From contig PNJO01000011.1 in assembly GCA_013821905.1 (NCBI GenBank), positions 1 to 34,204 on the forward strand: a stretch of 34,204 nucleotides of DNA, in the 5' to 3' direction. Origin of the DNA: Sphingopyxis sp. GTDB taxonomy: Bacteria > Pseudomonadota > Alphaproteobacteria > Sphingomonadales > Sphingomonadaceae. The notes beneath the pieces are model-generated. The model made no database searches, was not told the origin of the DNA, and worked only from the letters and a program-made list of their open reading frames with translations. Positions 5,956 through 33,938 of this stretch are shown one piece after another. The translations under genes were made by a program, and so were the position numbers. The first letter of the stretch is position 1, and each line of letters starts with the position of its first letter.

Positions 5956-5971
5956 GATCGGGGGGCCATGA

Positions 5972-14116: not shown

Positions 14117-14920
14117 TCAGGCGTCGATGCTGGTTTTCAAATCGCCGTGGACGAGCCCGCCGTCGACAGTGATCGTGTCGCCGACGACATAGTCACCCGC
14201 CTTCGACGCGAGGAAGATCGCGGCGCCCGCCATATCTTCGGGCACACCGATGCGCTTCACCGGGATGCTCTTCGCGACCGCGTCGCCATGATCGCGCGCC
14301 GCCTTGTTCATCTCCGACTGGAAGGCGCCGGGGGCGATCGCGGTGACGAGGATATGGTCGGTGACCAGCCGCGCCGCCATGCGCTTGGTGAGGTAGAGGA
14401 TCGCGGCCTTCGACGCGTGATAGCTGTATGTTTCCCAGGGGTTCAAGCGCATCCCGTCGATCGAGCCGATGTTGATGACCTTCGCCGGGCGGTCGGCGGT
14501 GCCGGCGGCCTTCAGCAGCCCGTGCAGCGCCTGGGTCAGGAAGAAAGGCGATTTGACGTTGATGTCCATCACCTTGTCCCAGCCCGCTTCGGGGAAGCCT
14601 TCGAAGGGTTCGCCCCACGCCGCGCCGGCATTGTTGACGAGGATGTCGAGGCGTTCTTCGCGCGCCTCAAGCTCCTTGGCGAGCGCGCGGCAGCCCTCGA
14701 CGGTCGAAAGGTCGACGGGAAGTCCGATCACCTTGCCGGGGTAGCGCGTCTCGAAATCGGCGACGGCTTCCTCGATCTGCGCCGTCTTGCGCGCCGAGAT
14801 ATAGACGCGCGCGGCGCCCGCGGCGAGATAGCCTTCGACGATCATCTTGCCGATGCCGCGCGAGCCGCCGGTGACGAGCGCGATGCGGCCCGAGAGGCCG
14901 AACATGTCATTGAGGTTCAT
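14117..14920 (-). CDS. SDR family oxidoreductase
   Basis: ALVTGGSRGIGK, NNAGAAWG, YSYHASKAA, DGGLVHGD. Confidence 0.93.
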   Translation of the reverse strand: MNLNDMFGLSGRIALVTGGSRGIGKMIVEGYLAAGAARVYISARKTAQIEEAVADFETRYPGKVIGLPVDLSTVEGCRALAKELEAREERLDILVNNAGAAWGEPFEGFPEAGWDKVMDINVKSPFFLTQALHGLLKAAGTADRPAKVINIGSIDGMRLNPWETYSYHASKAAILYLTKRMAARLVTDHILVTAIAPGAFQSEMNKAARDHGDAVAKSIPVKRIGVPEDMAGAAIFLASKAGDYVVGDTITVDGGLVHGDLKTSIDA

Positions 14921-14939
14921 TTGTCATTCTCCGATCATT

Positions 14940-15072
14940 CCCCTCCCCGCTGGGGAGGGGTTAGGGGTGGGGAGCCGCAGGCGTTCTTTTCTGTCTTCCT
15001 GCCCACCCCGCTGCGACTAGCGGACAAGTCCGCAAGTCTCGCGGCCCCTCCCGCTTGCGGGAGGGGATGGGG
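14940..15072. repeat. CCCCTCCCGC-type palindromic repeat (element e)
   Basis: CCCCTCCCCGCTGGGGAGGGG ... CCCCTCCCGCTTGCGGGAGGGG. Confidence 0.8.
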
Positions 15073-15077
15073 TCAAA

Positions 15078-16196
15078 TCAATACCCGTTCATCCGCGCGA
15101 CCTGGTCGATGTGATAATGCACGTCGCCCATAAATTCGGCGAGCGCGCGGTCGCGTTTCATATAGAGGCCGATGTCATATTCGTCGGTCATGCCGATGCC
15201 GCCGTGCATCTGCACGCCTTCGCGGACGGCAAGATTGGCGGCGCGGCCGGCTTTGGCCTTGGCGACCGAGACCATCAGCTTTGCGCCCTCGCTGCCCTCG
15301 TCGAGCAATTGCTGCGCCTTCATCACGGTGGCGCGCGCGACTTCCATCTCGCCATAGAGATGCGCAGCGCGGTGCTGGAGCCCCTGGAACTCGCCGATCA
15401 GCTTGCCGAACTGCTTGCGTTCCTTGAGGTAGGTGACGGTCATGTCCATCGCGCCCTGCCCGACGCCGACCATTTCGGCCGCGGCGCCGGTGCGCGTCGC
15501 GGCGAGCAGCGCATCGAGAATCTCGCCGCCGGCATCGACCTCGCCGATCACCGCGTCGGCATCGACCTCGACGCCGTCGAGCGTGACATGGCTCGCGAGC
15601 GAAGAATCGACCAGGCGGCGCGGGTCGGCGGTAACGCCCTTCGCATCCTTGGGCACCGCGAACAGCGTGATGCCGCCGTCGGTCTTCGCGGCGACGATGC
15701 TCATGTCGGCGACATGGCCGTGAAGCACGAAGCTCTTCTTGCCGTCGAGACGGAAGCCGTTGCCGGCGCGCGTCGCGGTCGTCGCAATGCGGTCGGGGCG
15801 ATGCTTCGCGCCTTCGTCGATCGCGAGCGCGACGATCGCCTCGCCCGATGCGATCGCGGGGAGCCAGCGGCTCGCCTGCGTACCGCCGGCCTTCGCGAGC
15901 GCGGCGACCGCGCCGACGCTCGTCGCGAGGAAAGGCGACGGGGTCAGGTTGCGGCCGATTTCCTCGAGCACGATGCCCGCCTCGATATGCCCCATGCCGA
16001 GCCCGCCATGCGCCTCGGGAACGAGCATGCCGGGCAGGCCCATTTCGGTGAACTGCGCCCAGAGGTCGCGCGAGAAGCCCGTGGCGTCGGCGCTGTCGCG
16101 GAGGCTGCGGAGGTGTGCGACCGGCGCCTGTTCGGCGACGAAGGGCGCGACGTTGTCCTTGAGCATCGCCTGGTCGTCATTGTGATAGAGCGGCAT
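15078..16196 (-). CDS. Acyl-CoA dehydrogenase-fold protein, likely non-catalytic subunit
   Basis: ACAD fold (YLKERKQFGKLIGEFQGLQH, QMHGGIGMTDEYDIGLYMKRDRAL) but lacks Glu at both usual catalytic positions (LAEFMGDVH in place of IYEGTNE; AATRT in place of LDLER). Confidence 0.9.
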   Translation of the reverse strand: MPLYHNDDQAMLKDNVAPFVAEQAPVAHLRSLRDSADATGFSRDLWAQFTEMGLPGMLVPEAHGGLGMGHIEAGIVLEEIGRNLTPSPFLATSVGAVAALAKAGGTQASRWLPAIASGEAIVALAIDEGAKHRPDRIATTATRAGNGFRLDGKKSFVLHGHVADMSIVAAKTDGGITLFAVPKDAKGVTADPRRLVDSSLASHVTLDGVEVDADAVIGEVDAGGEILDALLAATRTGAAAEMVGVGQGAMDMTVTYLKERKQFGKLIGEFQGLQHRAAHLYGEMEVARATVMKAQQLLDEGSEGAKLMVSVAKAKAGRAANLAVREGVQMHGGIGMTDEYDIGLYMKRDRALAEFMGDVHYHIDQVARMNGY

Positions 16197-16213
16197 GTCT
16201 GTCCCAATCTGTT

Positions 16214-16300
16214 GTCGTCATCCCAGCGAAAGCTGGGATCGTTGGCGGCGTGAACCGTCCTATTCCGATAGCGGCCCCAGCTTTCGCTGGGGCGACGGGT
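16214..16300. repeat. REP/BIME-like bipartite palindrome (element f)
   Basis: GTCAT-CCCAGC-GAAA-GCTGGG ... CCCCAGC-TTTC-GCTGGGG-CGACG. Confidence 0.88.
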
Positions 16301-16302
16301 TG

Positions 16303-17484
16303 TTAAGCTCCCGGCAAATCCAAAATCCGCTTGGCGATGACGTTGAGCATGACTTCGCTCGTCCCGCCTTCGATCGAATTGGCCTTGGTGCGGAGCCAGC
16401 TGCGCGCCCGCGCGCCGCCCTTGCTTTCCTCGCTGTCCCATTCGAGCGCGTCGCTGCCGCCGCCCGACATGACGAGTTCGTGGCGGCGCTTGTTGAGTTC
16501 GGTGCCGACATATTTCATCATGTTCGACGAGGCCGGATGCGCGCGGCCTGTTTTCCACATGTCCATGAAGCGCTCGCCCATCGCGCGATAGGCGAAGACG
16601 TCGGTGTCGAATGCCGCCATTTCGGCGCGCAGGATCGGGTCGTCGAGTTCGCCGTGGTCGTTCTTGCCGAGCGATTTGGCGAACAGCGCGCCAATGCTGA
16701 CCATGTCGCCGCCTGCGCCGCCGCCCGAGATCATCTCGCGTTCGTGGCCGAGCAGATATTTGGCGACGTCCCAGCCGCGATTGACCTGCCCCACGAACTG
16801 CGTCTTGGGCACTTCGACATCGTCGAAGAAGGTTTCGCAGAAGGGCGAGTTGCCCGAGATCAGCAGGATCGGCTTGGTCGTGACGCCCTTGCTCTCCATG
16901 TCGAAGAGCATGAAGGTGATGCCCTGATATTTGTTCGCCTTGTCGGTGCGGACGAGGCAGAAGATCCAGTCGGCCTTGTCGGCATAGCTGGTCCAGATCT
17001 TCGACCCGTTGACGACCCAGTGATCGCCCTTGTCTTCGCCGAAGGTCTGCAGCGAGACGAGGTCGCTGCCCGAGCCGGGTTCCGAATAGCCCTGGCACCA
17101 GCGGATTTCGCCGCGCGCGATCTGGTTCAGATAATGGACCTTCTGCTCCTCGGTGCCGAACTGGAGCAGCGCGGGGCCGAGCATCCAGATGCCGAAGCTG
17201 TCGAGCGGCGAGCGCGCGTTGATGCGCTTCATTTCCTGTTTGAGGATCTTGGTCTGCTCGGCGGTCAGCCCGGCGCCGCCATAGGCCTTGGGCCAGTCGG
17301 GGACGGTATAGCCCTTTTGGACGCAGGCTTCGAGCCACTGCTTCTGGGCGTCATTCTTGAACACCCATTTGCGGCCGCCCCAGCAGATGTCATTTTCATC
17401 GCGCACGGGCTCGCGCATTTCGGGGGGGCAATTGGCCTGCAGCCATTCGCGCACCTCGGTGCGGAAAGCGTCCACTTCGCTCAT
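16303..17484 (-). CDS. Acyl-CoA dehydrogenase, likely catalytic subunit of a heteromer
   Basis: CQGYSEPGSGSDLVSLQT, WVVNGSKIWTSYA, NSIEGGTSEVMLNVIAKRIL; E248 in LLGHERE matches the alternative catalytic Glu position. Confidence 0.94.
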   Translation of the reverse strand: MSEVDAFRTEVREWLQANCPPEMREPVRDENDICWGGRKWVFKNDAQKQWLEACVQKGYTVPDWPKAYGGAGLTAEQTKILKQEMKRINARSPLDSFGIWMLGPALLQFGTEEQKVHYLNQIARGEIRWCQGYSEPGSGSDLVSLQTFGEDKGDHWVVNGSKIWTSYADKADWIFCLVRTDKANKYQGITFMLFDMESKGVTTKPILLISGNSPFCETFFDDVEVPKTQFVGQVNRGWDVAKYLLGHEREMISGGGAGGDMVSIGALFAKSLGKNDHGELDDPILRAEMAAFDTDVFAYRAMGERFMDMWKTGRAHPASSNMMKYVGTELNKRRHELVMSGGGSDALEWDSEESKGGARARSWLRTKANSIEGGTSEVMLNVIAKRILDLPGA

Positions 17485-17530
17485 CCTTTGGCTCCTCTTC
17501 TCTGCGGCGAACCTACGTCCGCTTCGCTGC

Positions 17531-17546
17531 TTTACGCAAGCGTCAA
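17531..17546. promoter_or_regulatory. Operator-like inverted repeat in divergent intergenic region
   Basis: TTTACGC-AA-GCGTCAA, 7-2-7 architecture with one mismatch. Confidence 0.55.
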
Positions 17547-17598
17547 CTTGGCGCGGCGAGCCTGCCGTTACGGCGCCGTAGCGTCGGATCGACCGGCG

Positions 17599-17626
17599 TT
17601 GACGCGGCTTTCTGCGCCCCTAAGCT
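17599..17626 (+). promoter_or_regulatory. Possible sigma70-type promoter for the plus-strand SDR/MFS genes
   Basis: TTGACG-N16-TAAGCT about 30 bp upstream of ATG 17657. Confidence 0.3.
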
Positions 17627-17656
17627 AAGTGGCAAAAGAAAACGGGAGAATGGGTC

Positions 17657-18514
17657 ATGCGATTCGCAGGAAAGATTGCCGTCGTCACCGGCGCGGCGTC
17701 GGGCATCGGCAAGGCGGCGGTATTGAAACTCGCGGGCGAAGGCGCGCATGTCTTCGCCGCCGACATCGACGAGGCGGGCGGACAGGCGCTCGCCGAACAG
17801 TCGAACGGCAAGATCGACTTCGTCCGCTGCGACGTCACCGTGCCGTCGGATATCGAGGCACTGATGGACGCGGCCGCGGCAAAGGCGGGCGGGATCGACA
17901 TCGTCTTCAACAATGCGGCCGCGGGCGGCGACCGCGCGCCGATCGACGAGATTACGCCCGAAGGCTGGGACCGCACGATGGATCTGGTGCTCAAGTCGGT
18001 CGCGATGGGCATCCGCTATGCCGCGCCGCACATGAAGGGGCGGAAAGGCGCGTCGATCGTCAACACCGCGAGCGTCGCGGCGCTCGGCGCGGGCTATTCG
18101 CCGATCGCCTATGCGGTGGCGAAGGCGGGCGTGCTGCACCTCAGCAAGGTCGCGGCGACCGATCTGGCCCAATATGGCATCCGCGTGAACGCGATCTGCC
18201 CGGGCTTCATCAACACCAATATCTTCACCGCGTCGCTCGAGGTGCCCGGCGAGATGAAGGAGCAGGCGAATGCCGCGATCGCCGCGATGAGCGCGAACGC
18301 CCAGCCGGTCGCGCGCGGCGGCCAGCCCGAGGATATCGCCAACGCGGTCGCCTATCTCGCGAGCGAGGAATCCTCTTTCATGACCGGCACGCACCTGCTG
18401 GTCGACGGCGGGCTGACGATCGGCCAGCGCCATGCGTGGGACAAGGAAACGCCGGGCATGTTCGACGCCCTGCTCGCTATGGAGGAAGCGGCGAAAGCCG
18501 GAGCCCCGGCGTGA
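17657..18514 (+). CDS. SDR family oxidoreductase
   Basis: AVVTGAASGIGKAAV, NNAAAGGD, YAVAKAGV, VDGGLTIG. Confidence 0.93.
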   Translation: MRFAGKIAVVTGAASGIGKAAVLKLAGEGAHVFAADIDEAGGQALAEQSNGKIDFVRCDVTVPSDIEALMDAAAAKAGGIDIVFNNAAAGGDRAPIDEITPEGWDRTMDLVLKSVAMGIRYAAPHMKGRKGASIVNTASVAALGAGYSPIAYAVAKAGVLHLSKVAATDLAQYGIRVNAICPGFINTNIFTASLEVPGEMKEQANAAIAAMSANAQPVARGGQPEDIANAVAYLASEESSFMTGTHLLVDGGLTIGQRHAWDKETPGMFDALLAMEEAAKAGAPA

Positions 18515-19971
18515 ACGCAGCGAGCATCGCGGCACCCAAGGCCGAGCGCCTGCCCGTCTGGCTGAAGGTCACGCACGGGCTCGGCAGCATCGCCTATGGC
18601 GTCAAGGACAATGGCTTTTCGACCTTCCTGCTGCTGTTCTACAATCAGGTGATCGGGCTCGATGCCGGCATCGTCGGGCTCGCGATCATGGTCGCGCTGA
18701 TCGCCGACGCCTTCGTCGATCCGGTGATCGGCGAGCTGACCGACCGCACGCGCAGCCGCTGGGGGCGTCGCCTGCCGTGGCTCTATTTCGCGCCCGTCCC
18801 GCTTGCCATCGCCTGGATGCTGCTGTGGAGCCCGCCCGCGATGAGCGACGCGATGACGATCGCCTGGCTGATCGGCTTTGCGATCATCGTGCGCTCGCTC
18901 GTGTCGATGTGCGAAGTGCCGTCGGTGGCGATCGTCCCCGAGCTTTCGTCCGATTATGACGAGCGCACCGTCGTGATGCGCTATCGCTATCTGTTCGGCT
19001 GGGGCGGCGGATTGCTGATCCTCTGGCTCGCCTACGCGATCTTCTTCAACGGCAAACTCGGCCTCGTCGATCCGGCGGGCTATTTCCCCTATGCGCTGAC
19101 CGGCGCGCTGCTGATGGCGGGCGCAGTGCTGGTTTCGGCGGCGGGACAGCACAGCCGTATCGCGGTGTCGAACCTCGACCAGCCCAAGGCGACGGCGAAG
19201 CTCAGCCATGTGCTGCGCGACATGCGCGACACGCTGTCGAATCGCGCCTTTCTCTGGCTGACCTTCGCGGCGCTCTTCGCCTTCATCAACCAGGGCATCA
19301 CCTTTTCGATGACCAATTATCTGCTCGGCTTTTTCTGGCAGCTGACGGGCGCGGAGATGAGCCTTTACGTCTTTCTGCTGTTCGGAACGATGATCGCCGC
19401 CTTTCTGCTCGTCGCGCCGCTGTCGGCAAAGATGGGCAAGAAGGGCGGCGCGATCCTCGCGGGCGCGATCGCGCTGCTCGTCAACAGCGGCATGTATCTC
19501 GCCTGGATTCAGGGCGTCTTCCCCGGCCTGCCGGGCAAGCCCAGCGTCGCGGCCTTTTTCGGCCTGGTCTTCGTCGGCAACAGCTTCTCGATCATCCTGA
19601 TGATCCTCTCCTCGTCGATGATGGCCGATGTCGTCGAAGCGTCGCAGGGCGAGACGGGACGCCGGTCCGAGGGGCTGTTCTTCGCGGGCTATTTCTTCAT
19701 GCAGAAATGCGCGACCGGCGTCGGCATCTTCCTTGCCGGACAGATATTGTCCTTCGCGGCTTTCCCCGCCGCCGCGAAACCGGGCGAAGTCGGCGATGCG
19801 GTGCTCACCAGCCTCGCCTCGGGCTATGCGCTGGCGATCCTCGCGATCGGCACGATCGGCCTGATCGTGATGCGCAAATTCCCGATTTCGCGCGCCGATC
19901 ATGAGGCACGGCTCGCGCTGCTCGACGACACCGCGCGCGCCGAGCCCGATGCGAGCGGGGCGCACCCATAA
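18511..19971 (+). CDS. MFS transporter, GPH (MelB-like) family
   Basis: GTG start overlapping the previous TGA (GTGA); YGVKDNGFSTFLLLFYNQVIGL, DPVIGELTDRTRSRWGRRLPWL. Confidence 0.9.
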   Translation: MNAASIAAPKAERLPVWLKVTHGLGSIAYGVKDNGFSTFLLLFYNQVIGLDAGIVGLAIMVALIADAFVDPVIGELTDRTRSRWGRRLPWLYFAPVPLAIAWMLLWSPPAMSDAMTIAWLIGFAIIVRSLVSMCEVPSVAIVPELSSDYDERTVVMRYRYLFGWGGGLLILWLAYAIFFNGKLGLVDPAGYFPYALTGALLMAGAVLVSAAGQHSRIAVSNLDQPKATAKLSHVLRDMRDTLSNRAFLWLTFAALFAFINQGITFSMTNYLLGFFWQLTGAEMSLYVFLLFGTMIAAFLLVAPLSAKMGKKGGAILAGAIALLVNSGMYLAWIQGVFPGLPGKPSVAAFFGLVFVGNSFSIILMILSSSMMADVVEASQGETGRRSEGLFFAGYFFMQKCATGVGIFLAGQILSFAAFPAAAKPGEVGDAVLTSLASGYALAILAIGTIGLIVMRKFPISRADHEARLALLDDTARAEPDASGAHP

Positions 19972-20050
19972 GCGAAAAATGCGCGCCATGACCAAATGAG
20001 GTAATTTTCGGACCGCAGGACTTGGCAAGGCCGGCGAATCGGTCCAAGGG

Positions 20051-20066
20051 TTTACGTGAACGTAAA
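20051..20066. promoter_or_regulatory. Perfect operator-like inverted repeat upstream of acyl-CoA dehydrogenase
   Basis: TTTACGT-GA-ACGTAAA, perfect 7-2-7 palindrome 15 bp before ATG 20082. Confidence 0.65.
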
Positions 20067-20081
20067 GGGAAGGATGCGGAG

Positions 20082-21371
20082 ATGGATTTCGATCTCACCG
20101 ACCGGCAGGTCTATTGGCGCGACCGGGTGCGCGACTTCATCGAGCGCAAGGTGCGCCCCGCCGTCCCGATCTATGAAGAACAGGACAAGGCCGGCGACCG
20201 CTGGAAGGTCATCCGGATCGTCGAGGATCTGAAGGCCGAGGCGAAGGAAGCCGGCATCTGGAACCTGTTCATGCCGCCGCGCAGCGCCGCGCACCACCAT
20301 GTCGACGAGACGTTCGAATTCGAGGGACCGGGGCTCACCAACCTCGAATATGCGCTCTGCGCCGAGGAAATGGGCCGCGTCGGCTTTGCGAGCGAAGTGT
20401 TCAACTGCTCGGCGCCCGACACCGGCAATATGGAGGTGTTCCACCGCTATGGCACGCGCGCGCAGAAGGACAAATATCTCGGCCGGCTGATGAACGGCGA
20501 GATCCGGTCGGCCTTTCTGATGACCGAGCCGCGCGTCGCCTCGTCCGACGCCACGAACATCGAGACGCGGATCGAACGCGACGGCGACGATTATGTGATC
20601 AACGGCCGCAAATGGTGGTCGTCGGGCGCGGGCGACCCGCGCTGCGAGGTCGCGATCGTGATGGGCAAGACCGACTTTGCCGCCAAGCGCCACGCGCAGC
20701 AGTCGATGGTGCTGATGCCGCTGAAGGCGCCCGGCGTGACCATCCTGCGCCACCTGCCCGTCTTCGGTTATGACGACGCGCCGCACGGCCATATGGAAAT
20801 CGAGCTGAAGGACGTGCGCGTCAATGCCGAGGAAGCGATGCTGCTCGGCGAGGGGCGCGGTTTCGAGATCGCGCAGGGGCGCCTCGGGCCTGGGCGCATC
20901 CACCATTGCATGCGCACCATCGGTGTGGCGGAAGAAGCGATCGCCAAGATGGCGAAGCGGCTCCAGTCGCGCGTCGCCTTCGACCGCAAGGTCGCCGAAT
21001 ACAGCATCTGGGAGCATCGCCTGGCACGCGCGCGCATCGACATCGAGATGACGCGCCTCCTGTGCCTCAAGGCCGCCGACATGATGGACAAGGTCGGCAA
21101 CAAGGCCGCTGCCGCCGAGATCGCGATGATCAAGGTGCAGGCACCGACGATGGCGCTGCAGATCATCGACGATGCGATCCAGGCGCACGGCGGCGCGGGC
21201 GTGTCGGAGGATTTCGGGCTCGCCAAGGCCTATGCGCACCAGCGCACGCTTCGTCTGGCCGATGGCCCCGACGAGGTCCACGAGCGCGCGGTCGCGCGGA
21301 TCGAATTCGCCAAGCACAGCGAAGCGAGCGACCCCGGCTTTTCGTCGGGCGACATCGGCGTATCGCGTTAG
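20082..21371 (+). CDS. Acyl-CoA dehydrogenase, ACAD10/11-like subgroup
   Basis: Start at ATG 20082; [62 protein letters not shown] (ADGPDEVH C-terminus). Confidence 0.93.
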
Positions 21372-21393
21372 AAACTGAATTCGGAGAGATGTT

Positions 21394-22485
21394 GTGACCA
21401 AAGCCGCCGTTCTCATCGAAACCGGAAAGCCGCTGCAGATCGAGGAGGTGATCGTCGCCGATCCCGGTCCGCACGAGGTGCGCATCCGCACCGCCGCCTG
21501 CGGGCTCTGCCATTCGGACCTGCATTTCATCGACGGCGCCTATCCGCATCCCCTGCCCGCGATCCCGGGGCACGAGGCTGCGGGCATCGTCGAGGCGGTC
21601 GGCAGCGAAGTGCGCACGGTGAAGGTCGGCGACGCGGTCGTTACCTGCCTGTCGGCCTTCTGCGGCCACTGCGAATTTTGCGTCACCGGCCGCATGTCGC
21701 TTTGCATGGGGGGCGATACGCGTCGTCCGGCCGGCGCCGCGCCGCGCATCACCCGCCCCGACGGATCGCCGGTGGGCCAGATGCTCAATCTCTCGGCCTT
21801 TTCCGAAGTCATGCTGGTCCACGAACATGCGTGCGTCGCGATCGATCCCGACATGCCGCTCGACCGCGCGGCGGTGATCGGCTGCGCGGTGACGACCGGC
21901 GCGGGGACGATCTTCAACGCGTGCAAGGTGACGCCGGGCGAGACGGTCGCGGTCGTCGGCTGCGGCGGCGTCGGGCTGGCGACGATCAACGCCGCGAAGA
22001 TCGCAGGCGCGGGGCGCATCATCGCCGCCGACCCGGTCCCCGAGAAGCGCGAACTGGCGAAGAAACTGGGCGCGACCGATGTGGTGGACGCACTTGCCGA
22101 CGATGCCGCGAAGCAGATCGTCGAACTGACCAAGGGCGGCGTCGATCATGCCATCGAAGCGGTCGGACGACCGGCCTCGGCCAGCCTCGCGGTCGCCTCG
22201 CTGCGCCGCGGCGGCACCGCGACGATCCTCGGCATGATGCCGCTCGCCGAAAAGGTCGGCCTCGGCGCGATGGACCTGCTGTCGGGCAAGAAATTGCAAG
22301 GCGCGATCATGGGCGGCAACCGCTTCCCGGTCGATATCCCGCGTCTCGTCGATTTCTACCTGCGCGGGCTGCTCGACCTCGACAGCATCGTCGCCGAGAC
22401 GATCCCGCTCGCCAAGGTCAACGAAGGCTTCGACAAGATGCGAAAGGGCGACGCCGCACGGTCGGTGATCGTTTTCGGCCAGTGA
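21394..22485 (+). CDS. Zinc-dependent medium-chain alcohol dehydrogenase
   Basis: GTG start; CGLCHSDLHFIDG, GHEAAGIVEAVG, structural zinc CGHCEFCVTGRMSLC, VVGCGGVGLATI. Confidence 0.94.
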   Translation: MTKAAVLIETGKPLQIEEVIVADPGPHEVRIRTAACGLCHSDLHFIDGAYPHPLPAIPGHEAAGIVEAVGSEVRTVKVGDAVVTCLSAFCGHCEFCVTGRMSLCMGGDTRRPAGAAPRITRPDGSPVGQMLNLSAFSEVMLVHEHACVAIDPDMPLDRAAVIGCAVTTGAGTIFNACKVTPGETVAVVGCGGVGLATINAAKIAGAGRIIAADPVPEKRELAKKLGATDVVDALADDAAKQIVELTKGGVDHAIEAVGRPASASLAVASLRRGGTATILGMMPLAEKVGLGAMDLLSGKKLQGAIMGGNRFPVDIPRLVDFYLRGLLDLDSIVAETIPLAKVNEGFDKMRKGDAARSVIVFGQ

Positions 22486-23549
22486 CGCTCGACGCGCAGA
22501 AGGCCTTCAGCGGCACCGTCGCGCCCGAAGGTGCCGACATCCTCGACGAGGCGAAGCTGACCGCGTGGATGGAGGCGAATGTCGCGGGCTTCGAGGGACC
22601 GCTGACGCAAAGCAAATTTGCTGGCGGCCAGTCGAATCCGACCTACAAGATTTCGGCTCCTTCGGGCAATTATGTCCTGCGCCGCAAACCCTTCGGCCCG
22701 CTCCTCCCTTCGGCGCATGCGGTCGACCGCGAATATAAGGTGCAGGCGGGGCTCCATAAGATGGGTTTCCCCGTCGCACGCCAATATGGCCTGTGCACCG
22801 ACGATGATGTGGTCGGCAGCTGGTTTTACGTGATGGCGATGGTCGACGGCCAGACGATCTGGGACGGCGCGATGCCGGGATCGACCCCCGACAATCGCCG
22901 CGCCACCTACGAGGCGATGATCGACACGCTCGCCGCGCTGCACAGCGTCGATGTCGAGGCGGCGGGGCTGTCCGATTTCGGCAAGCCGGGCAATTATTTC
23001 GGCCGCCAGGTCGAACGCTGGACCAAGCAATATCGCCTCTCCGAAACCGAGACGATGGACGAGATGGAGCAGCTGATCGCCTTTCTGCCGGCGAGCCTGC
23101 CCGAACAGACGCGCACCAGCGTCGTCCACGGCGACTATCGCATCGACAATATGATCTTTGCCAAGGACCGTCCGCAGGTTCTGGCGGTGCTCGACTGGGA
23201 GCTGTCGACGCTCGGCGATCCGCTCGCCGATTTCACCTATGTCGCGATGGCGTGGGTGACCGAAAATGGCGGGCGTTCGGGCGTCATGGATCTCGACCGC
23301 AAGAGCCTCGGCATTCCCGAACTCGACGAGGTGGTCGAACGCTATTGCGCCGCCACCGGCCGCGACGGCGTGCCCGACATGAACTGGTATTTCGCCTATA
23401 ATTTCTTCCGCCTCGCCGGGATTCTGCAGGGGATCAAGAAGCGCGTCATCGACGGCACCGCCTCCTCGGCGCACGCCAGGGCGATGTCCGAACGCGTCCG
23501 CCCGCTCGCCGAGACGGCGTGGAGCTTTGCCCGAAAGGCCGGAGCATGA
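22482..23549 (+). CDS. APH-fold phosphotransferase, ACAD10/11 kinase-domain-like
   Basis: GTG start in GTGA overlap; GGQSNPTYKI, YVLRRKPFGPLLPSAHAVDREYKV, VVHGDYRIDNMIF, VLDWELSTLGDPLADFTYVAMAW. Confidence 0.93.
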   Translation: MTLDAQKAFSGTVAPEGADILDEAKLTAWMEANVAGFEGPLTQSKFAGGQSNPTYKISAPSGNYVLRRKPFGPLLPSAHAVDREYKVQAGLHKMGFPVARQYGLCTDDDVVGSWFYVMAMVDGQTIWDGAMPGSTPDNRRATYEAMIDTLAALHSVDVEAAGLSDFGKPGNYFGRQVERWTKQYRLSETETMDEMEQLIAFLPASLPEQTRTSVVHGDYRIDNMIFAKDRPQVLAVLDWELSTLGDPLADFTYVAMAWVTENGGRSGVMDLDRKSLGIPELDEVVERYCAATGRDGVPDMNWYFAYNFFRLAGILQGIKKRVIDGTASSAHARAMSERVRPLAETAWSFARKAGA

Positions 23550-24322
23550 GCCTGTTCGACATGAGCGGCCAGGTCGCGCTGATCACCGGATCGTCGCGCG
23601 GCATCGGCAAGGCGACGGCAGAGGCGATGGCCGAACAGGGCGCGAAGGTCGTGATTTCGAGCCGCAAGGCCGACGCCTGCGAAGCGACCGCGGCGGAGAT
23701 CAACGCGAAGCACGGCGCGGGCGCCGCCATCGCCGTGCCCGCGAATATTTCCTCGAAGGACGATCTGCAAAACCTCGTCGCCGAAACGCGCCGCGCCCTC
23801 GGCAAGATCACCGCGCTCGTCTGCAACGCCGCGTCGAACCCCTATTATGGTCCCGGCCTCGATATCGGCGACGAGCAGTTCCGCAAGATCATGGACAATA
23901 ATATCCTGTCCAACCACTGGCTGATCTCCATGGTCGCGCCCGAAATGGTCGAACGCGGCGAAGGCGCGATCACGATCGTCAGCTCGATCGGCGGACTGAA
24001 AGGATCGCCGATCATCGGCGCCTATTGCATCTCCAAGGCGGCCGACATGCAGATGGCCCGCAATTTCGCGGTCGAGCTCGGCCCGAAGGGCGTGCGCGTC
24101 AACTGCATCGCGCCGGGGCTGGTGCGCACCGACATGGCGCGCGCCTTGTGGGAAGATCCCGAGACGCTCAAACGCTCGACCGCCGCATCGACGCTGAAGC
24201 GCATCGGCGAACCGCACGAGATCGCGGGCGCGGCGGTCTTCCTCGCCAGCAAGGCGGGGGCATTCACCACCGGCCAGGCCATCGTCTGCGATGGCGGGGC
24301 CACGATTTCGGGAGGCGCATGA
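23546..24322 (+). CDS. SDR family oxidoreductase
   Basis: ATGA overlap with preceding gene; ALITGSSRGIGKATA, NAASNPYYG, YCISKAAD. Confidence 0.93.
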   Translation: MSLFDMSGQVALITGSSRGIGKATAEAMAEQGAKVVISSRKADACEATAAEINAKHGAGAAIAVPANISSKDDLQNLVAETRRALGKITALVCNAASNPYYGPGLDIGDEQFRKIMDNNILSNHWLISMVAPEMVERGEGAITIVSSIGGLKGSPIIGAYCISKAADMQMARNFAVELGPKGVRVNCIAPGLVRTDMARALWEDPETLKRSTAASTLKRIGEPHEIAGAAVFLASKAGAFTTGQAIVCDGGATISGGA

Positions 24323-25125
24323 TGGGCGCATTGGACGGCAAGGTTGCAATCATCACGGGCGCGGGCAGCGGCATCGGCCGCGCGAGCGCGCTGCGCTTCG
24401 CCGCCGAGGGCGCGAAGCTCGTCATCGGCGACAAGACGGCGGCGGTGCATGAGACCGCGAAGCTGGTGAAGGACGCGGGCGGCGAGGTCGTCGCGATCGA
24501 GATCGACGCGGGCGTCGAGGCCGACGTCGCAAAGCTCGTCTCGGCTGCGAAAGACAGCTTCGGCGGGCTCGACGTTGCCTTCGCCAATGCCGGGATCATC
24601 GGCGACATGGGCGGCATCTTCGATTTCGATCCCGCCGCCTGGGCCGAGACGCTGCGCGTCAACCTGATCGGCCCCGCGCTGATGGTGAAACATGCCGGCA
24701 AGGCGATGGTCGATCAGGGCCGCGGCGGCGCGATCGTGCTGACCGCGAGCGTCGCCGGGATCAATTCGGGCGCGGGTCCGGGCGCCTATTCGGCGTCGAA
24801 GGCGGGCGTCATCAATCTCGCCAAGGTCGCGGCGCAGCAGCTGTCGACGAGCGGCGTGCGCGTCAACGCGGTGTGCCCGGGCCTCACCGAAACGGGGATG
24901 ACCAAGCCGACCTTCGATTATGCCAAGGCGAAGGAGGTCACGCACAAGCTCGGCCAGCTCAATCCGCTGCGGCGCGCGGCGCAGCCCGAGGAGCTGGCGA
25001 ACGTTGCCCTCTTCCTTGCAAGCGACCAGGCGAGCTATGTCAACGGTCAGGCCATAGCGGTCGACGGCGGACTCACCAGCTCGCATCCGGTGACGCGTCA
25101 GCTGCTGGGCCAGACCTCGCACTGA
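24319..25125 (+). CDS. SDR family oxidoreductase
   Basis: ATGATG start overlapping previous TGA; AIITGAGSGIGRASA, NAGIIGDMG, YSASKAGV; start 24319 or 24322. Confidence 0.93.
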   Translation: MMGALDGKVAIITGAGSGIGRASALRFAAEGAKLVIGDKTAAVHETAKLVKDAGGEVVAIEIDAGVEADVAKLVSAAKDSFGGLDVAFANAGIIGDMGGIFDFDPAAWAETLRVNLIGPALMVKHAGKAMVDQGRGGAIVLTASVAGINSGAGPGAYSASKAGVINLAKVAAQQLSTSGVRVNAVCPGLTETGMTKPTFDYAKAKEVTHKLGQLNPLRRAAQPEELANVALFLASDQASYVNGQAIAVDGGLTSSHPVTRQLLGQTSH

Positions 25126-25137
25126 CGGAGCAAGCCC

Positions 25138-26085
25138 ATGCAATATCGTGACCTTGGCGACAGCGGCATCAGCGTTTCGGCGATCTGCCTCGGCAGCTGG
25201 CTGACCTATGGCGCCGGGGTCGACGACAGCGCGGGGCGCGCCTGCGTCGATGCGGCCTTCGACGTCGGCATCAATTTCATCGACACCGCGAACATCTATG
25301 GCCGGGGCGCGGCGGAGAGCTTTCTCGGCGACGTGTTGAGCGGTCGGCCGCGCGACTCCTATGTCCTCGCAACCAAGCTCTTCTTCCCGATGACCGAGAG
25401 CGATCGCGGCCTGTCCGCCGCGCAAATCGCGAAACAGATCGACGCGAGCCTGACGCGGCTGCGCACCGATTATATCGACCTTTATCAATGCCATCGCTAC
25501 GATCCCGAAACCCCGCTTAAGGAGACGATGGCAGCGCTCTCCGGGGTCGTGCGCAGCGGCAAGGCGCGGGCGATCGGCTTTTCCGAATGGTCGCCCGAAC
25601 AGATCGAGGCGGCGCTCGCGCTCGCGCCGCCCAGCGTCAAATTCGTGTCGAGCCAGCCGCAATACAGCCTGCTCTATCGCCGCGCCGAAAAGAAGGTCAT
25701 CCCGATCAGCATCGCGAACGGCATCGGCCAGATCGTCTGGTCGCCGCTCGCGCAGGGCGTGCTGAGCGGCAAATATCTGCCGGGCGCGGCGCTGCCCGCG
25801 GGCAGCCGCGCAACCGGCGACGACGCGCATTTCATGCAGCAGTTCCTGACCGATCCCGTGCTCGAAGCCGTGCAGGAGCTGAAGGCGGTCGCCGGCAAGG
25901 CGGAATGCTCGCTGGCGCAGCTCGCGATCGCGTGGGTGCTCGCGCAGCCCGGCATCACCAGCGCGATCGTCGGCGCGAGCCGCCCCGACCAGTTGCGCGA
26001 GACTGCGAAGGCGGCCGACCTGACCATCGACCCCGCGCTGCTCGCGGAGGCCGCTGCCATCCTCGAAGGAGTCCGCATTTCGTGA
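25138..26085 (+). CDS. Aldo/keto reductase
   Basis: [75 protein letters not shown]. Confidence 0.94.
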
Positions 26086-27284
26086 GTCACGGTTTCGACA
26101 AGGCGCGCCTCGACCGCATCCCGGCTTTCCTCAAGGCCAAATATGTCGACACCGGCCGACTGCCGCACGCGGCGACGCTCGTGTCGCGGCACGGCGAGAT
26201 CGCCCACGAGTCGGTGATCGGCGAAGCGCGTCCCGGCGCGGCGCTGAAGGCGGATGCGATCTTCCGCATCGCCAGCATGACAAAGCCGGTCACCAGCATC
26301 GCCTTCATGATGCTGGTCGAGGAGGGCAAGGTCGCCTTGTCCGACCCGCTGGTGAAGTTCTGCCCCGAATTCAGGGATACGGGCGTTTTCGTCGCGGGCG
26401 GCGGCAACGTCCCCTTCCTGACGCGGCCACCGGCGCAGCCGATCCGCATGGTCGACCTGCTGCGCCACACCGCGGGGCTGACCTACGGCTTTCAGGAGCG
26501 CACGCCGGTCGATGCCGCCTATCGCAAGGCGCGGATCGACGATTTCGATGCCGATTACACGATGGACAGCTTCCTCGCCGGGCTCGCGAAAATCCCGCTG
26601 CAGTTCGACCCCGGCGCGCACTGGAATTATTCGATGGCGACCGACGTGCTCGGCGCGGTGATCGAACGCATCGAGGGCAAGCCCTTCGCGCAGGTTCTGC
26701 AGGAACGGATTTTCGGCCCGCTCGGCATGAAGGACACGGGCTTCAAGGTGCCCGCCGACCAGCAGCACCGGCTGACCGACTGCTACGCCTTCGACCCGAA
26801 AGAAAAGATGAAGCTGTTCGACAGCGGCGACAAGAGCCGCTGGGCCAAGGACCGCAGCTTTCATTCGGGCGGCGGCGGCCTTGCCTCGACGCTCGACGAT
26901 TATCACCGTTTCTGCCTGATGCTGCTCGGCGGCGGCAAATATGGCGACACGCGCCTCATCAGCCGCAAGACGCTCGCGCTGATGACCTCGAACCACCTCG
27001 TCGGCGGCGGCGACCTGACGCAGCACAGCGTCGGCATCTTTTCCGAGGACGAGAATGCGGGGGTCGGCTTCGGGCTCGGCTTCGCGGTCACGCTCGACCC
27101 CGCGCGCGCCGGCATCCCCGGCTCGGCAGGCGATTTCTATTGGGGCGGCATGTTCTCGACCGGCTTCTTCGTCGATCCGGTCGAGCAGATCTGCATGGTC
27201 TTCATGACCCAGCTCATGCCCTCCTCCACCTATCCCGTGCGGCGCGAGGTCAAGACGCTTGTCCACGCCGCGCTCGACGACTGA
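26082..27284 (+). CDS. Serine hydrolase, beta-lactamase/EstB-like family
   Basis: GTGA overlap; SxxK motif [32 protein letters not shown]. Confidence 0.92.
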
Positions 27285-27308
27285 CAACCAGACCCAAGGA
27301 GTTCCCCC

Positions 27309-29342
27309 ATGTCCGAAGACACCCCCGTTTCCGTCACGCTGGAAAAGGACGGCGACGTCGCCGTCATCATCGTCAACAACCCGCCGGTGAACGCCCTGAG
27401 CTGGCACGTCCGCCAGGGCCTCGAAGACCAGTTCAAGGCCGCGCTGGCCGATGACGGCGTCAAGGCGATCGTCCTGCGCTGTGCGGGCGCGACCTTCATC
27501 GCGGGTGCCGACATCAGCGAATTCGGCAAGCCGCCGCGCGGCCCCGATTTCAACGCAGTGCTCAACAGCATCGAGGCGGCGCCCAAGCCGGTCGTCGCGG
27601 CGATCCACGGCACGGCGCTCGGCGGCGGGCTCGAAACCGCGCTTGTCTGCCACTATCGCGTCGCGGTGCCGTCGGCGAAGCTCGGCGTTCCCGAGGTGAA
27701 GCTCGGCCTGCTGCCCGGCGCCGGCGGCACGCAGCGCCTGCCGCGCGTCGTCGGCGTCGAGGCCGCCGCGACGATGACCTCGACCGGCGATCCGCTGCCC
27801 GCCGCAAAGGCGAAGGAGCTTGGCCTCGTCGACGAACTCGCGGGCGAGGACAGCCTTGCCGCCGACGCGATCGCCTTTGCACGCGCGAAGATCGCCGACG
27901 GCCCGCGCCCGACGCGCGAACGCCCGGTGTTCGGCGACGTCGCGGTGATCGAACAGCTGAAAGCCGCCAATGCCAAGCGCTGGCGCGGTTTCGAGGCGCC
28001 CTACGCCAACCTCGCCTGCGTCGAGGCGGCGACGCGGCTTCCTTTCGAGGAAGGTCTGGCCTTCGAGCGCGAACAGTTCATGAAGCTGATGTTCGGCAGT
28101 CAGTCGGCGGCGCAGCGCCACATCTTCTTCGCCGAGCGCCAGGCCGCGAAGATCGACGGCCTGCCCAAGGACACGCAGCTGCGCGACATCAGGAAGGTCG
28201 GCGTGATCGGCGCCGGCACGATGGGCGGCGGCATTTCGATGAACTTCCTGCAGAAGGGCATCCCGGTCACGATCGTCGAGATGGCGCAGGACGCGCTCGA
28301 CCGCGGCGTCGGCGTGGTTCGCAAGAATTACGACGCGAGCGCCGCGAAGGGCCGCTTCAAGCCCGAACAGGTCGACGCGATGATGGGGATCCTCACCCCC
28401 AGCCTCAGCCTCGACGATCTCGCCGACTGCGACCTCATCATCGAGGCGGTCTATGAGAATATGGACGTCAAGAAGGACATCTTCGGCAAGCTCGACAAGA
28501 TCGCAAAGCCCGGCGCGATCCTCGCGTCGAACACCAGCTATCTCGACATCGACGAGATCGCGACCGCGACGAGCCGCCCCGGCGACGTGCTCGGCATGCA
28601 CTTCTTCTCGCCCGCCAATGTCATGAAGCTGCTCGAGGTCGTGCGCGGCGACAAGACCGCGCCCGACGCGCTCGCGACCGCGATGGCGATCGGCAAGAAG
28701 ATCGGCAAGGTCGCGGTGGTCGCGGGCGTGTGCGACGGCTTCATCGGCAACCGCATGCTCAAGCCCCGCCAGGTCGAGGCGATGAAGCTGCTGCTCGAAG
28801 GCGCGACCCCGGCGCAGGTCGACAAGGTGCATGTCGATTTCGGCATGCCGATGGGGCCGTTCCAGATGAGCGACCTCGCGGGCGTCGATATCGGCTGGCA
28901 CCGCGACCCGAACCGCATCGAGAGCATCCGCGACGCACTCGCCGCCGAAGGCCGCTGGGGTCAGAAGAAGCAGGCGGGCTTCTACGACTATGACGAGAAG
29001 CGCAATCCGTCGGAAAGCCCGCGTGTCGCCGAGATCATCGAGGAGTTCCGCAAGCGCGAAGGCGTCGCGAAGCGCGAGATCAGCGCGCAGGAAATTATCG
29101 AGCGCACGCTTTATCCGATGGTCAACGAAGGTGCGCTGATCCTGTCCGAGGGCAAGGCGCAGCGCGCGTCGGACATCGATGTCGTGTGGATCTATGGCTA
29201 TGGCTGGCCGGTCTATCGCGGCGGCCCGATGTTCTGGGCGGGGCTCGAGGGCACCGACAAGATCGTCGCCGCGCTCGAAAAACATGGTTTCGAGATCGCG
29301 CCGCTGCTCAAGGAGAAGGCGGAGGCGAAGGCGGGCTTCTAG
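27309..29342 (+). CDS. Bifunctional enoyl-CoA hydratase/3-hydroxyacyl-CoA dehydrogenase
   Basis: ECH N-terminus ([33 protein letters not shown]) fused to HAD ([31 protein letters not shown]). Confidence 0.96.
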
Positions 29343-29366: not shown

Positions 29367-29405
29367 GGCCGTCTGTCCCGCCGTGGGGCAGGCGGCCTTT
29401 CTTTT
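29367..29405 (+). terminator. Rho-independent terminator after the bifunctional FadB-like gene
   Basis: GGCCGTCTGTCCC-GCCGT-GGGGCAGGCGGCC stem (two G.U wobbles) followed by TTTCTTTT. Confidence 0.85.
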
Positions 29406-29854: not shown

Positions 29855-30730
29855 TCAGCCCTGCAACGTCGTGATGATCGCCGAAAAATCGCGGCCGTCC
29901 TTGTCGGCTTCGACAAAGGCTTCGTAGAGTTCGCGCGCCTTCGACCCCATCGGAACATCGGCATCGACGCTCGCCGCCGCCTCCATCGCCAGACGCAAAT
30001 CCTTGAGCATCAGCGCCGCGGCGAAGCCGCCGCGATAGCCATTGTCGGCGGGCGTCGTCGGACCGACGCCGGGCAGCGGCGCATAGCTGGTCAGCGACCA
30101 GCACTGCCCCGACGACACGCTAGCGATGTCGAAGAATTTCTGCGGATCGAGGCCGAGCTTCTGCGCGAGCGCCAGCGTCTCGCACGTCGCGATCATCGAC
30201 GCACCGAGCAGCATGTTGTTGCAGATTTTCGCGCCCTGCCCCGCGCCCGCGTCGCCGGCGTGGATCACCGCCTTGCCCATTTTCGCGAGGATCGGTTCGG
30301 CGCGCGCGAAACCCTCGTCGGTACCGCCGACCATGAAGGTCAGCGTGCCCGCATTGGCGGCCGCGATGCCGCCCGACACCGGCGCGTCGACCGCGACGAG
30401 GCCCTTTGCGGTCGCCGCCTCGATATTGGCGCGCGTGGTCGCGACGTCGATCGTCGAGCAATCGAGGAGCAACGTGCCGGGTGCCGCGTTCGGGAAGACA
30501 TCGCCTTCATAGACGCCCGCGACATGCTTGCCCGCGGGAAGCATCGTCACCACCGCTTCGGCGCCGGTCACGGCTTCGGCCGTCGATGCGGCGCGGGTGC
30601 AGCCCGCCTCGACCGCACGCGCCAGCGCCTCTTCGCTGAGGTCGAAGGCGCGCACCTCATGCCCCGCCTTGGCGAGGTTGGCGGCCATGCCGCCGCCCAT
30701 ATTGCCGAGTCCGATAAAGGCGATTTTCAT
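29855..30730 (-). CDS. mmsB: 3-hydroxyisobutyrate dehydrogenase
   Basis: IAFIGLGNMGGGMAANLAKAGHEV, DAPVSGGIAAANAGTLTFMVGG, GAKICNNMLLGASMIATCE. Confidence 0.94.
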   Translation of the reverse strand: MKIAFIGLGNMGGGMAANLAKAGHEVRAFDLSEEALARAVEAGCTRAASTAEAVTGAEAVVTMLPAGKHVAGVYEGDVFPNAAPGTLLLDCSTIDVATTRANIEAATAKGLVAVDAPVSGGIAAANAGTLTFMVGGTDEGFARAEPILAKMGKAVIHAGDAGAGQGAKICNNMLLGASMIATCETLALAQKLGLDPQKFFDIASVSSGQCWSLTSYAPLPGVGPTTPADNGYRGGFAAALMLKDLRLAMEAAASVDADVPMGSKARELYEAFVEADKDGRDFSAIITTLQG

Positions 30731-30737
30731 AGTCTCT

Positions 30738-30840
30738 CCCCTCCCGCTTGCGGGAGGGGCCGGGGGAGGGCCTGTCCCGAATATTGCAATGGCGAGGAGG
30801 AAACAGGCCCTCCCCTGACCCCTCCCGCAAGCGGGAGGGG
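30738..30840. repeat. MITE-like 103-bp inverted repeat (element h)
   Basis: Two 38-bp arms, inverted with 2 mismatches, around a 27-nt loop; each arm contains CCCCTCCCGC/GCGGGAGGGG. Confidence 0.88.
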
Positions 30841-30848
30841 AACCCGGC

Positions 30849-31631
30849 TCACCGCCCCTTCCACACGCCTTCGCGTTTCTCGATGAAGGCGGCCATGCCT
30901 TCGGCCTTGTCCTCGGTCGCGGCGAGGATCTGGAACAGGCGGCGTTCGTAGATCAGCCCCTGATCGAGCGTCGTTTCGAACGCGGTGTTGACCATGTCCT
31001 TGTTCACCATCGCGGCCATCGGCGGCATTGCGGCGATCGTGGTTGCGGTCTTCACCGCTTCGTCGATCAGCGTTTCGTGCGAGACAACACGCGCAACGAG
31101 GCCCGAACGTTCGGCTTCGGCGGCGTCCATCATCCGGCCGGTCAGGCACATTTCCATCGCCTTCGCCTTGCCGATCGCGCGCGTCAGCCGCTGCGACCCG
31201 CCCATGCCCGGCGCGACGCCGAGCTTGATTTCGGGCTGGCCGAATTTCGCCTTGTCCGACGCGATGATGAAGTCGGCCATCATCGCGAGCTCGCAGCCGC
31301 CGCCCAAGGCAAAGCCGTTGACCGCGGCGATCCACGGCTTGCGGACCTTCTTCACGAAGTCGCTCGTCCATTTCGAGAAGAAATCCTCGAGATAGAAATC
31401 GGCGGCGGGCTTTTCGGCCATTTCCTTGATGTCGGCGCCCGCGGCGAACGCCTTGTCGCCCGTTCCGGTGAGCACCGCGCAGCGCTGGCTGTCGTCGGCC
31501 TCGAACGCGGCAAAGGCCGCGATCAGGTCATCGAGCACGCCCGAGTTCAGCGCGTTGAGCGCCTGCGGGCGATTGAGCGTCACCAGCGTGACGGCGCCGC
31601 GCGTTTCGACGAGGAGGGTTTCGTATGTCAT
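30849..31631 (-). CDS. Enoyl-CoA hydratase
   Basis: [57 protein letters not shown]. Confidence 0.94.
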
Positions 31632-31644
31632 TCGGCAATCTCCT

Positions 31645-31705
31645 TCGTCATTCCGGCGAAGGCCGGAATCTCGACGGTGAGACCCCGGCCTCCGCCGGGG
31701 TGACG
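31645..31705. repeat. REP/BIME-like bipartite palindrome (element i)
   Basis: GTCA-TTCCGGC-GAAG-GCCGGAA ... CCCCGGCCTCCGCCGGGG-TGACG. Confidence 0.88.
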
Positions 31706-31707
31706 AT

Positions 31708-32754
31708 TTAGGTTAGAGGGGTCCATTTCTCGGCTTCGGGCAGCGGCGCGAAGATCGCGTCGATCCAGTCGTCAGTGACGGCTTCGGGGGTCGGCGGATC
31801 CCATTTCGGACTGTTGTCCTTGTCGACGATCAGAGCGCGGACGCCCTCGATGAAGTCGTGCATCCGGACGACGCGGCTGCCGATCGCATATTCCTGCGTC
31901 ATCTGCGCCGTAAAGTCGTGCATCACGGCACCTTCCTTGAGCTGGCGCAGCGCAACCTTGCAGGTTTGCGGCGACTTGCCGTGCAGCGCCGCCAGTTCCT
32001 TCTCCGCCCATTCGCCGCCATCGGTTTCGAGCGCCGCAAGGATGTCCTCATAGGTGTCGCTCGCAAAGAGCCGGTTGATCTTGTCGATCTGGCCGGTGAT
32101 CGCAGCGGGCGGCGCGGTGACAGACAATTCGCCGAGGATGCCGCCGATGCGGTCGGGGTGCGCAGCGATGCGCTCCTTGGCTTCGGTCAGCCGCTCGGAC
32201 GGCAGATAGTGTGTCGCGAGGCCGAGCGCGAGGCACTCTGCCCCGTCGAGCCGCGCGCCGGTGAGCGCGAGGAAGACGCCGACGCGGCCTTCGAGCCGGG
32301 GCAGATACCAGCCGCCGCCGACGTCGGGGAACAGGCCGATCCCCGTCTCGGGCATAGCAAACCGCGTATGCTCGGTCGCGACGCGATATTTCGCGGGCTG
32401 CGAGATGCCGACCCCGCCGCCCATCGTGATGCCGTCCATGAAGGCGACGACGGGCTTGGGATAGGTGAAGAGCAGATGGTTGAGGCGATATTCGGTGTGG
32501 AAGAAGAGGCGCGCTTCGACTCCGTCCTTCGCGCCGCTTGTCGCCAACATGCGGATATCGCCGCCCGCGCAGAAGCCGCGGCCCTCGCTGTGGTCGATGA
32601 TCACCGCCTCGACGGCGCCGTCGTCGCGCCACGCCAGCAGCGCCTCGATCATCGCCTGACACATCGGCAGGTTGAGCGCGTGGATCGCCTTCGGGCGGTT
32701 GAGCGACAGCCGGCCGATACGGCCATCGGTCGAAATCAAGACATCTTCGGTCAT
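31708..32754 (-). CDS. 3-hydroxyisobutyryl-CoA hydrolase (enoyl-CoA hydratase/isomerase family)
   Basis: [64 protein letters not shown]. Confidence 0.92.
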
Positions 32755-33896: not shown

Positions 33897-33910
33897 TTCT
33901 TTTTCTCTTG

Positions 33911-33938
33911 CGTCATGCTGACGAAAGTCAGCATCCAT
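33911..33938. repeat. Single REP-like hairpin (element j) next to the GIY-YIG gene
   Basis: GTC-ATGCTGAC-GAAA-GTCAGCAT-CC, perfect 8-bp stem, GAAA loop. Confidence 0.8.

Follow-up and report, generated by a model that had tools for sequence, protein, structure and literature searches.

Separate genes for an ACAD11-type kinase and acyl-CoA dehydrogenase, predicted to deoxygenate 4-hydroxyacyl-CoAs, in a conserved gene cluster of Sphingopyxis and other Sphingomonadales

Introduction

Which reaction might a phosphotransferase and an acyl-CoA dehydrogenase (ACAD) encoded two genes apart in Sphingopyxis sp. carry out, and to what pathway could they belong? The genes lie at positions 22482 to 23549 and 20082 to 21371 (both on the plus strand) of a 34,204-nucleotide stretch of contig PNJO01000011.1, referred to here as the window. 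An earlier note, made from the letters alone, had taken the pair for the separated halves of animal ACAD11, converting a 4-hydroxyacyl-CoA to a 2-enoyl-CoA. We find that both proteins are of the ACAD11 type, and it is very probable, judging from sequence and from analogy with characterized systems, that each is one half of an ACAD11-type module for deoxygenating 4-hydroxyacyl-CoAs, which performs one step of a larger catabolic cluster. No paper on Sphingopyxis with such a kinase/ACAD pair was found in the literature.

Results and Discussion

Both proteins carry the ACAD11 residues

The two open reading frames (ORFs) are intact at the positions and in the frames that the earlier note had given. 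The product of 20082 to 21371 (429 amino acids), an ACAD11/LvaC-type acyl-CoA dehydrogenase by its residues, identity, and position in the tree, matches all three acyl-CoA dehydrogenase domains of Pfam and is 54.6% identical to the dehydrogenase domain of mouse ACAD11. Among solved structures, it matches human (421.5 bits) and mouse (420.5 bits) ACAD11 best, followed among bacterial proteins by 4hr3 (394 bits), whose entry names only a putative acyl-CoA dehydrogenase; the best ordinary ACAD structure reached 130 bits. In a cryo-EM and mutational study of ACAD11, R626, H634, and R637 bind the 4-phosphate, R631 is a general ACAD residue, and D753 is the base; substitution of R626, H634, or R637 impairs the second step in ACAD10/11 (PMC12440821). 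After alignment to 2wbi and 8v3u, all of these residues could be mapped from the mouse chain onto the window protein, as R267 (R626), R272 (R631), H275 (H634), and R278 (R637), the HCMR motif included, and as the catalytic aspartate D394 (D753) in LADGPDEVH. The earlier note had placed this last motif at the C terminus; motif and aspartate are there, about 35 residues ahead of the end of the protein.

The kinase (355 amino acids) scores 170.6 bits with the APH model PF01636 and contains, as previously noticed, YVLRRKPFGPLLPSAHAVDRE, HGDYRIDN, and DWELSTLGDP. It is 40.4% identical to the kinase domain of mouse ACAD11, and the residues named for that domain, D220, N225, and R176 (PMC12440821), are conserved as D218, N223, and R175. 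Among solved structures, it is closest to 3dxp (383 bits), a bacterial protein again annotated only as a putative acyl-CoA dehydrogenase, followed by the ACAD11 kinase domain 8v3v (242 bits). By residues, identity, and tree, it belongs to the ACAD11 kinase-domain type, and it is predicted to be a 4-hydroxyacyl-CoA kinase. Homologs in Sphingopyxis are ca. 90 to 95% identical to it. Among related Sphingomonadales proteins, the full phosphate-binding motif together with ADGPDEVH is kept in 72 of 73 ACADs (the remaining one matches neither pattern) and HGD[YF]RIDN in 80 of 80 kinases, which excludes a chance match.

Phylogeny and genomic pairing

In an ACAD tree of 62 rows, built without LvaC and ACAD10, all proteins bearing the R....R..H.MR motif fell in one clade (support 98/93). 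The window dehydrogenase clustered with human and mouse ACAD11 in an ACAD11-type clade of 40 rows (99/98), in which the animal proteins are nested among bacterial relatives and from which ordinary ACADs are excluded; those lacking the motif, including the PimC/PimD-like and IBD-like proteins of the window itself, branched outside. In the kinase tree, built without LvaA and ACAD10, the window kinase, 3dxp, and the ACAD11 kinase formed one group (95/97), to which more distant kinases did not belong; long branches leave the deepest joins unsure. The phylogenetic comparison with ACAD11 that the earlier note had suggested thus came out in favor of its assignment.

To follow the two genes across genomes, one even sample of 120 Pseudomonadota was searched at E values of at most 1e-70 (ACAD) and 1e-40 (kinase). 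The ACAD was present in 29 genomes and the kinase in 30; all 29 with the ACAD also had the kinase, and a single genome had the kinase alone (Fisher p ~5e-27, a descriptive figure, the genomes being related and their kinship uncorrected). According to the listed coordinates, the two genes are no more than ca. 5 kb apart in well over half of the genomes having both, and they formed separate ORFs in every locus read. The 29/29 co-occurrence supports the kinase and the dehydrogenase being a functional pair.

Under a quite different reading, the kinase would phosphorylate antibiotics or other small molecules, the ACAD would be an ordinary one, and the two would be neighbors by accident. Both families are indeed large, with many other functions, and there was no ACAD11-specific NCBIfam match. 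However, the HCMR motif, the trees, and the co-occurrence all speak against this reading, to which we give hardly any weight. The NCBIfam model for APH(3') gave only 31 bits against a cutoff of 205, and an antibiotic phosphotransferase was rejected.

Comparison with known systems

Like mammalian ACAD11 and ACAD10 (PMC12440821, PMC11342911), the window encodes both domains, with the catalytic residues and the phosphate-binding motif (equivalents of R626, H634, R637, D753, and R631). Unlike them, it has two genes with a Zn-dependent alcohol dehydrogenase (ADH) gene between them (21394 to 22485, plus strand), as the earlier note had described, with no fusion into one polypeptide and no HAD domain. 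Separate genes are the usual bacterial state of this kinase and ACAD, as in LvaA/LvaC, so that the split, real as it is, had been overstated as a curiosity. The Pseudomonas putida lva operon likewise has separate kinase and ACAD genes with the same predicted two-step chemistry, and lvaABCD homologs have already been noted across Alpha-, Beta-, and Gammaproteobacteria (PMC6692424). The free-standing ACAD10-like kinase (Q63VL0) and ACAD of Burkholderia pseudomallei, orthologs of LvaA/LvaC compared here by description, can substitute for each ACAD10 half in vitro, an electron acceptor not being needed (PMC11342911). Since split genes are the bacterial norm and the Burkholderia orthologs have been shown to replace the mammalian halves, we count the window pair as a known kind and not as new chemistry.

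Could the locus then be a levulinate operon? The two-enzyme chemistry would be identical, and the SDR proteins present could replace LvaD. However, the window kinase is of the ACAD11 type and not of the divergent LvaA type, being 40% identical to ACAD11, whereas LvaA is 29% identical to the ACAD10/11 kinases (published identities; PMC11342911). In P. putida, the 12-kDa LvaB is an essential partner of LvaA (PMC6692424). The window operon differs from lva in encoding neither a gene of LvaB size nor an LvaE-type CoA ligase, and in its other neighbors; its gaps of at most ca. 110 bp leave no room or ORF for LvaB, which is not decisive, given that the Pseudomonas citronellolis cluster also lacks LvaB. 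We thus regard an Lva operon as highly improbable and levulinate as an unlikely substrate on sequence grounds, and the Lva parallel drawn in the earlier note finds little support as regards function.

DUF6285 (PF19802), presumed to be the LvaB family, occurs once in the genome, on another contig (C41, 269 to 2843), where an APH kinase, DUF6285, and an ACAD lie in a row. This locus was rejected as an Lva reference because its ACAD lacks the motif, with all phosphate-binding residues missing (SFVHQNRIRQAAS, ITEGAEEIQ).

Proposed reaction and points against it

Because both proteins are of the ACAD11 type and the two appear to be a functional pair, the step from 4-hydroxyacyl-CoA to 2-enoyl-CoA put forward earlier is supported as a prediction. 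As in the characterized homologs, the kinase would transfer a phosphate from ATP to the 4-hydroxyl group of a CoA thioester. In the dehydrogenase-fold enzyme, Asp394 would then take the alpha proton while Arg267, His275, and Arg278 clamp the 4-phosphate, whose departure would leave a 2-enoyl-CoA with no electrons passed to an outside acceptor; the electrons are thought to stay with FAD and the substrate. ACAD10/11 act on C5 to C10 4-hydroxyacyl-CoAs (PMC12440821, PMC11342911) and do not accept the free 4-hydroxy acid (PMC12440821). In the window, the substrate would be a 4-hydroxyacyl-CoA other than 4-hydroxyvaleryl-CoA. From the gene context (see below), a FadB-like protein may hydrate and oxidize the resulting 2-enoyl-CoA, an esterase may release the acid or open a lactone, a PimCD-like enzyme could perform another acyl-CoA step, and the CoA ligase would be unlinked to the cluster.

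Several observations weigh against this interpretation. ACAD11 Arg86, named in the paper, falls on no arginine in our chain numbering, a conserved arginine beside the alphaC glutamate (DRE) standing two residues earlier. The genomes of the co-occurrence sample are phylogenetically nonindependent, and LvaA and LvaC were compared through published identities only, not sequences. Neither a thiolase nor a regulator was recognized within the gene cluster (14117 to 29342). As the earlier note had remarked for the CoA ligase, no AMP-binding gene is found on the window contig (C11); 19 are located elsewhere in the 3.35-Mb genome.

A conserved divergent cluster in Sphingomonadales

Synteny was compared across 80 related loci, the denominators below being the loci long enough for the gene in question. 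The conserved unit, a divergent, chromosomal cluster found in Sphingomonadales, occupies both strands between 14117 and 29342. On its minus arm are the PimC-like large subunit (16303 to 17484, 64/64 loci) and the PimD-like small subunit (15078 to 16196, 62/62) of a heteromeric ACAD, ending with an SDR oxidoreductase (14117 to 14920, 61/61). The plus arm begins with another SDR oxidoreductase (17657 to 18514, 54/67) and a GPH-family MFS transporter (MFS_2; 18532 to 19971, 66/68), continues with the ACAD (68/68), the Zn-dependent medium-chain ADH (69/69 testable loci), and the kinase (71/71), and proceeds to two more SDR oxidoreductases, SDRb (23546 to 24322, 51/73) and SDRc (24319 to 25125, 54/76). 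Next come an accessory aldo-keto reductase (AKR; 25138 to 26085, 13/74), a family VIII esterase with a beta-lactamase fold and SxxK motif (26082 to 27284, 50/66; best PDB relative 7pp3, 361 bits), which is a candidate ester or lactone hydrolase, and a FadB/FadJ-like enoyl-CoA hydratase and 3-hydroxyacyl-CoA dehydrogenase (27309 to 29342, 40/60). Several junctions of this arm overlap by 4 bp: the last 4 bp of the ADH gene lie within the kinase gene, the kinase stop shares an ATGA with SDRb at 23546, SDRb overlaps SDRc, and the GTG start of the esterase at 26082 overlaps the AKR stop. A terminator-like hairpin of 14 pairs followed by a T-rich tail (29367 to 29397, plus strand), 25 bp past the FadB-like stop, is the likely end of the operon.

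The genes that the earlier note had listed as sharing the operon are thus present, but that note drew the limits too tightly and left out the heteromeric ACAD pair, one SDR, and the transporter; the AKR is incidental to the cluster. The plus arm of the Novosphingobium and Tsuneonella loci stops at the kinase and lacks the esterase and FadB.

The genes at 15078 to 17484 encode two adjacent, divergent subunits, matching both the large-subunit model pimC_large (TIGR03204, 284 bits) and the small-subunit model pimD_small (TIGR03203, 221 bits). Because both scores are below the equivalog cutoffs, neither a pimeloyl-CoA nor a steroid-CoA substrate can be assigned to them. Among the solved structures closest to them are 6wy8/6wy9 and 4x28, which are steroid-type alpha2-beta2 ACADs, at low scores (ca. 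130 to 145 bits). Such a pair also accompanies the ACAD11-type ACAD and kinase in more distant Sphingomonadaceae and in plasmid loci. Three more distantly related operons carried by Sphingomonadales plasmids (L105, L106, and L108) unite a CoA ligase and a thiolase with the ACAD11-type ACAD, the kinase, both SDRb and SDRc, and FadB, and L105 and L108 also carry an ACAD pair. When the ortholog of the L105 ligase was sought in the genome of the window, the best hit was 36% identical and on another contig, so that no clear candidate emerged.

Which substrate?

Two classes of substrate are about equally plausible, and each is put forward tentatively. The invariance of the heteromeric ACAD pair makes us lean to bulkier acyl-CoAs, in which case ACAD11 chemistry might operate within a cluster degrading bulky compounds, whether cyclic, terpenoid, steroid-like, or bearing a dicarboxylic side chain, with the chain of such a compound turned into a 4-hydroxyacyl-CoA; this would be a refinement of the module proposed above. 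The PimC/PimD-like pair, with steroid-type structures among its solved relatives, stands beside the ACAD11-type ACAD and kinase in all 62 to 64 testable loci. However, PimCD itself uses a linear dicarboxylate, the window proteins resemble no solved heteromer closely, and no ring-cleavage genes are found in the cluster. The presence of the esterase and FadB makes us lean the other way, to straight-chain 4-hydroxy fatty acids or gamma-lactones. A lactone or ester might be opened by the esterase and the acid activated by a CoA ligase encoded outside the cluster, before the pair removes the hydroxyl and FadB continues. A lactone or 4-hydroxy fatty acid source, as first suggested, is possible, and the chain lengths used by ACAD10/11 agree with it, as do the two downstream genes, which are, however, missing from the Novosphingobium and Tsuneonella versions; nor is lactonase activity known for the esterase.

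A bolder reading, which we consider rather unlikely, is that the core shared among loci (SDR, PimD, and PimC diverging from MFS, ACAD11-type ACAD, Zn-ADH, and kinase) represents an undescribed Sphingomonadales catabolic pathway, coupling ATP-driven removal of a 4-hydroxyl to a heteromeric ACAD of the steroid/PimCD type and so extending the ACAD11 reaction to bulky substrates that are not fatty acids. A role in bile acid degradation was unsupported, as the Sphingomonadaceae bile-salt literature (PMC12882949) has heteromeric ACADs and no kinase.

Related loci and neighboring genes

The motif is also borne by the ACADs of a second deep clade, which are ca. 30% identical to the window protein and read RLSPARL[ST]HCMR and YDGPTEVH. 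Its members (L099:10784-11998, L101:6811-7992, L102:8802-10004, L159:10235, and one at ca. 57.3 kb on contig C1 of the same genome as the window, L125:9305-10477) adjoin kinases ca. 50% identical to the window kinase and come from Acinetobacter, Novosphingobium, and Sphingobium plasmids; in a sister group, the motifs are RLGTARLTHCMR and VDGASEVH. The second deep clade, not described in the ACAD10/11 work consulted (PMC12440821, PMC11342911), may represent another lineage capable of this chemistry. On contig C1, positions 48000 to 75000 (L125, L126) hold a further catabolic cluster, in which three PimC/PimD-like pairs of ACADs are accompanied by an SHCMR-type ACAD and an HHAMR-type ACAD beside an APH kinase with the catalytic loop HGDVGTPN. 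On hexachlorocyclohexane-degradation plasmids, an ACAD11-type ACAD (70% identical) lies beside linX/linA with no adjoining kinase (L103:9001-10239, L104:12001-13239).

Within the window, the cluster is bordered at 29855 to 33938 (minus strand) by a probable valine catabolism operon encoding a 3-hydroxyisobutyrate dehydrogenase-like protein, an enoyl-CoA hydratase, an ECH_2 protein of the 3-hydroxyisobutyryl-CoA hydrolase type, and an acyl-CoA dehydrogenase. At 4969 to 7243 (minus strand), genes for an EgtD-like histidine methyltransferase (PF10017) and an EgtB-like protein (FGE-sulfatase and DinB_2) adjoin each other, indicating ergothioneine biosynthesis.

Significance

It was only in 2024-2025 that the 4-hydroxyacyl-CoA chemistry came to be attributed to ACAD10/11. 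Our results suggest the reannotation of many genes called "phosphotransferase" or "aminoglycoside phosphotransferase" that adjoin an "acyl-CoA dehydrogenase." The locus offers a tractable bacterial system, with its core fully syntenic in cultivable Sphingopyxis and Novosphingobium, so that gene knockouts could reveal the physiological substrate.

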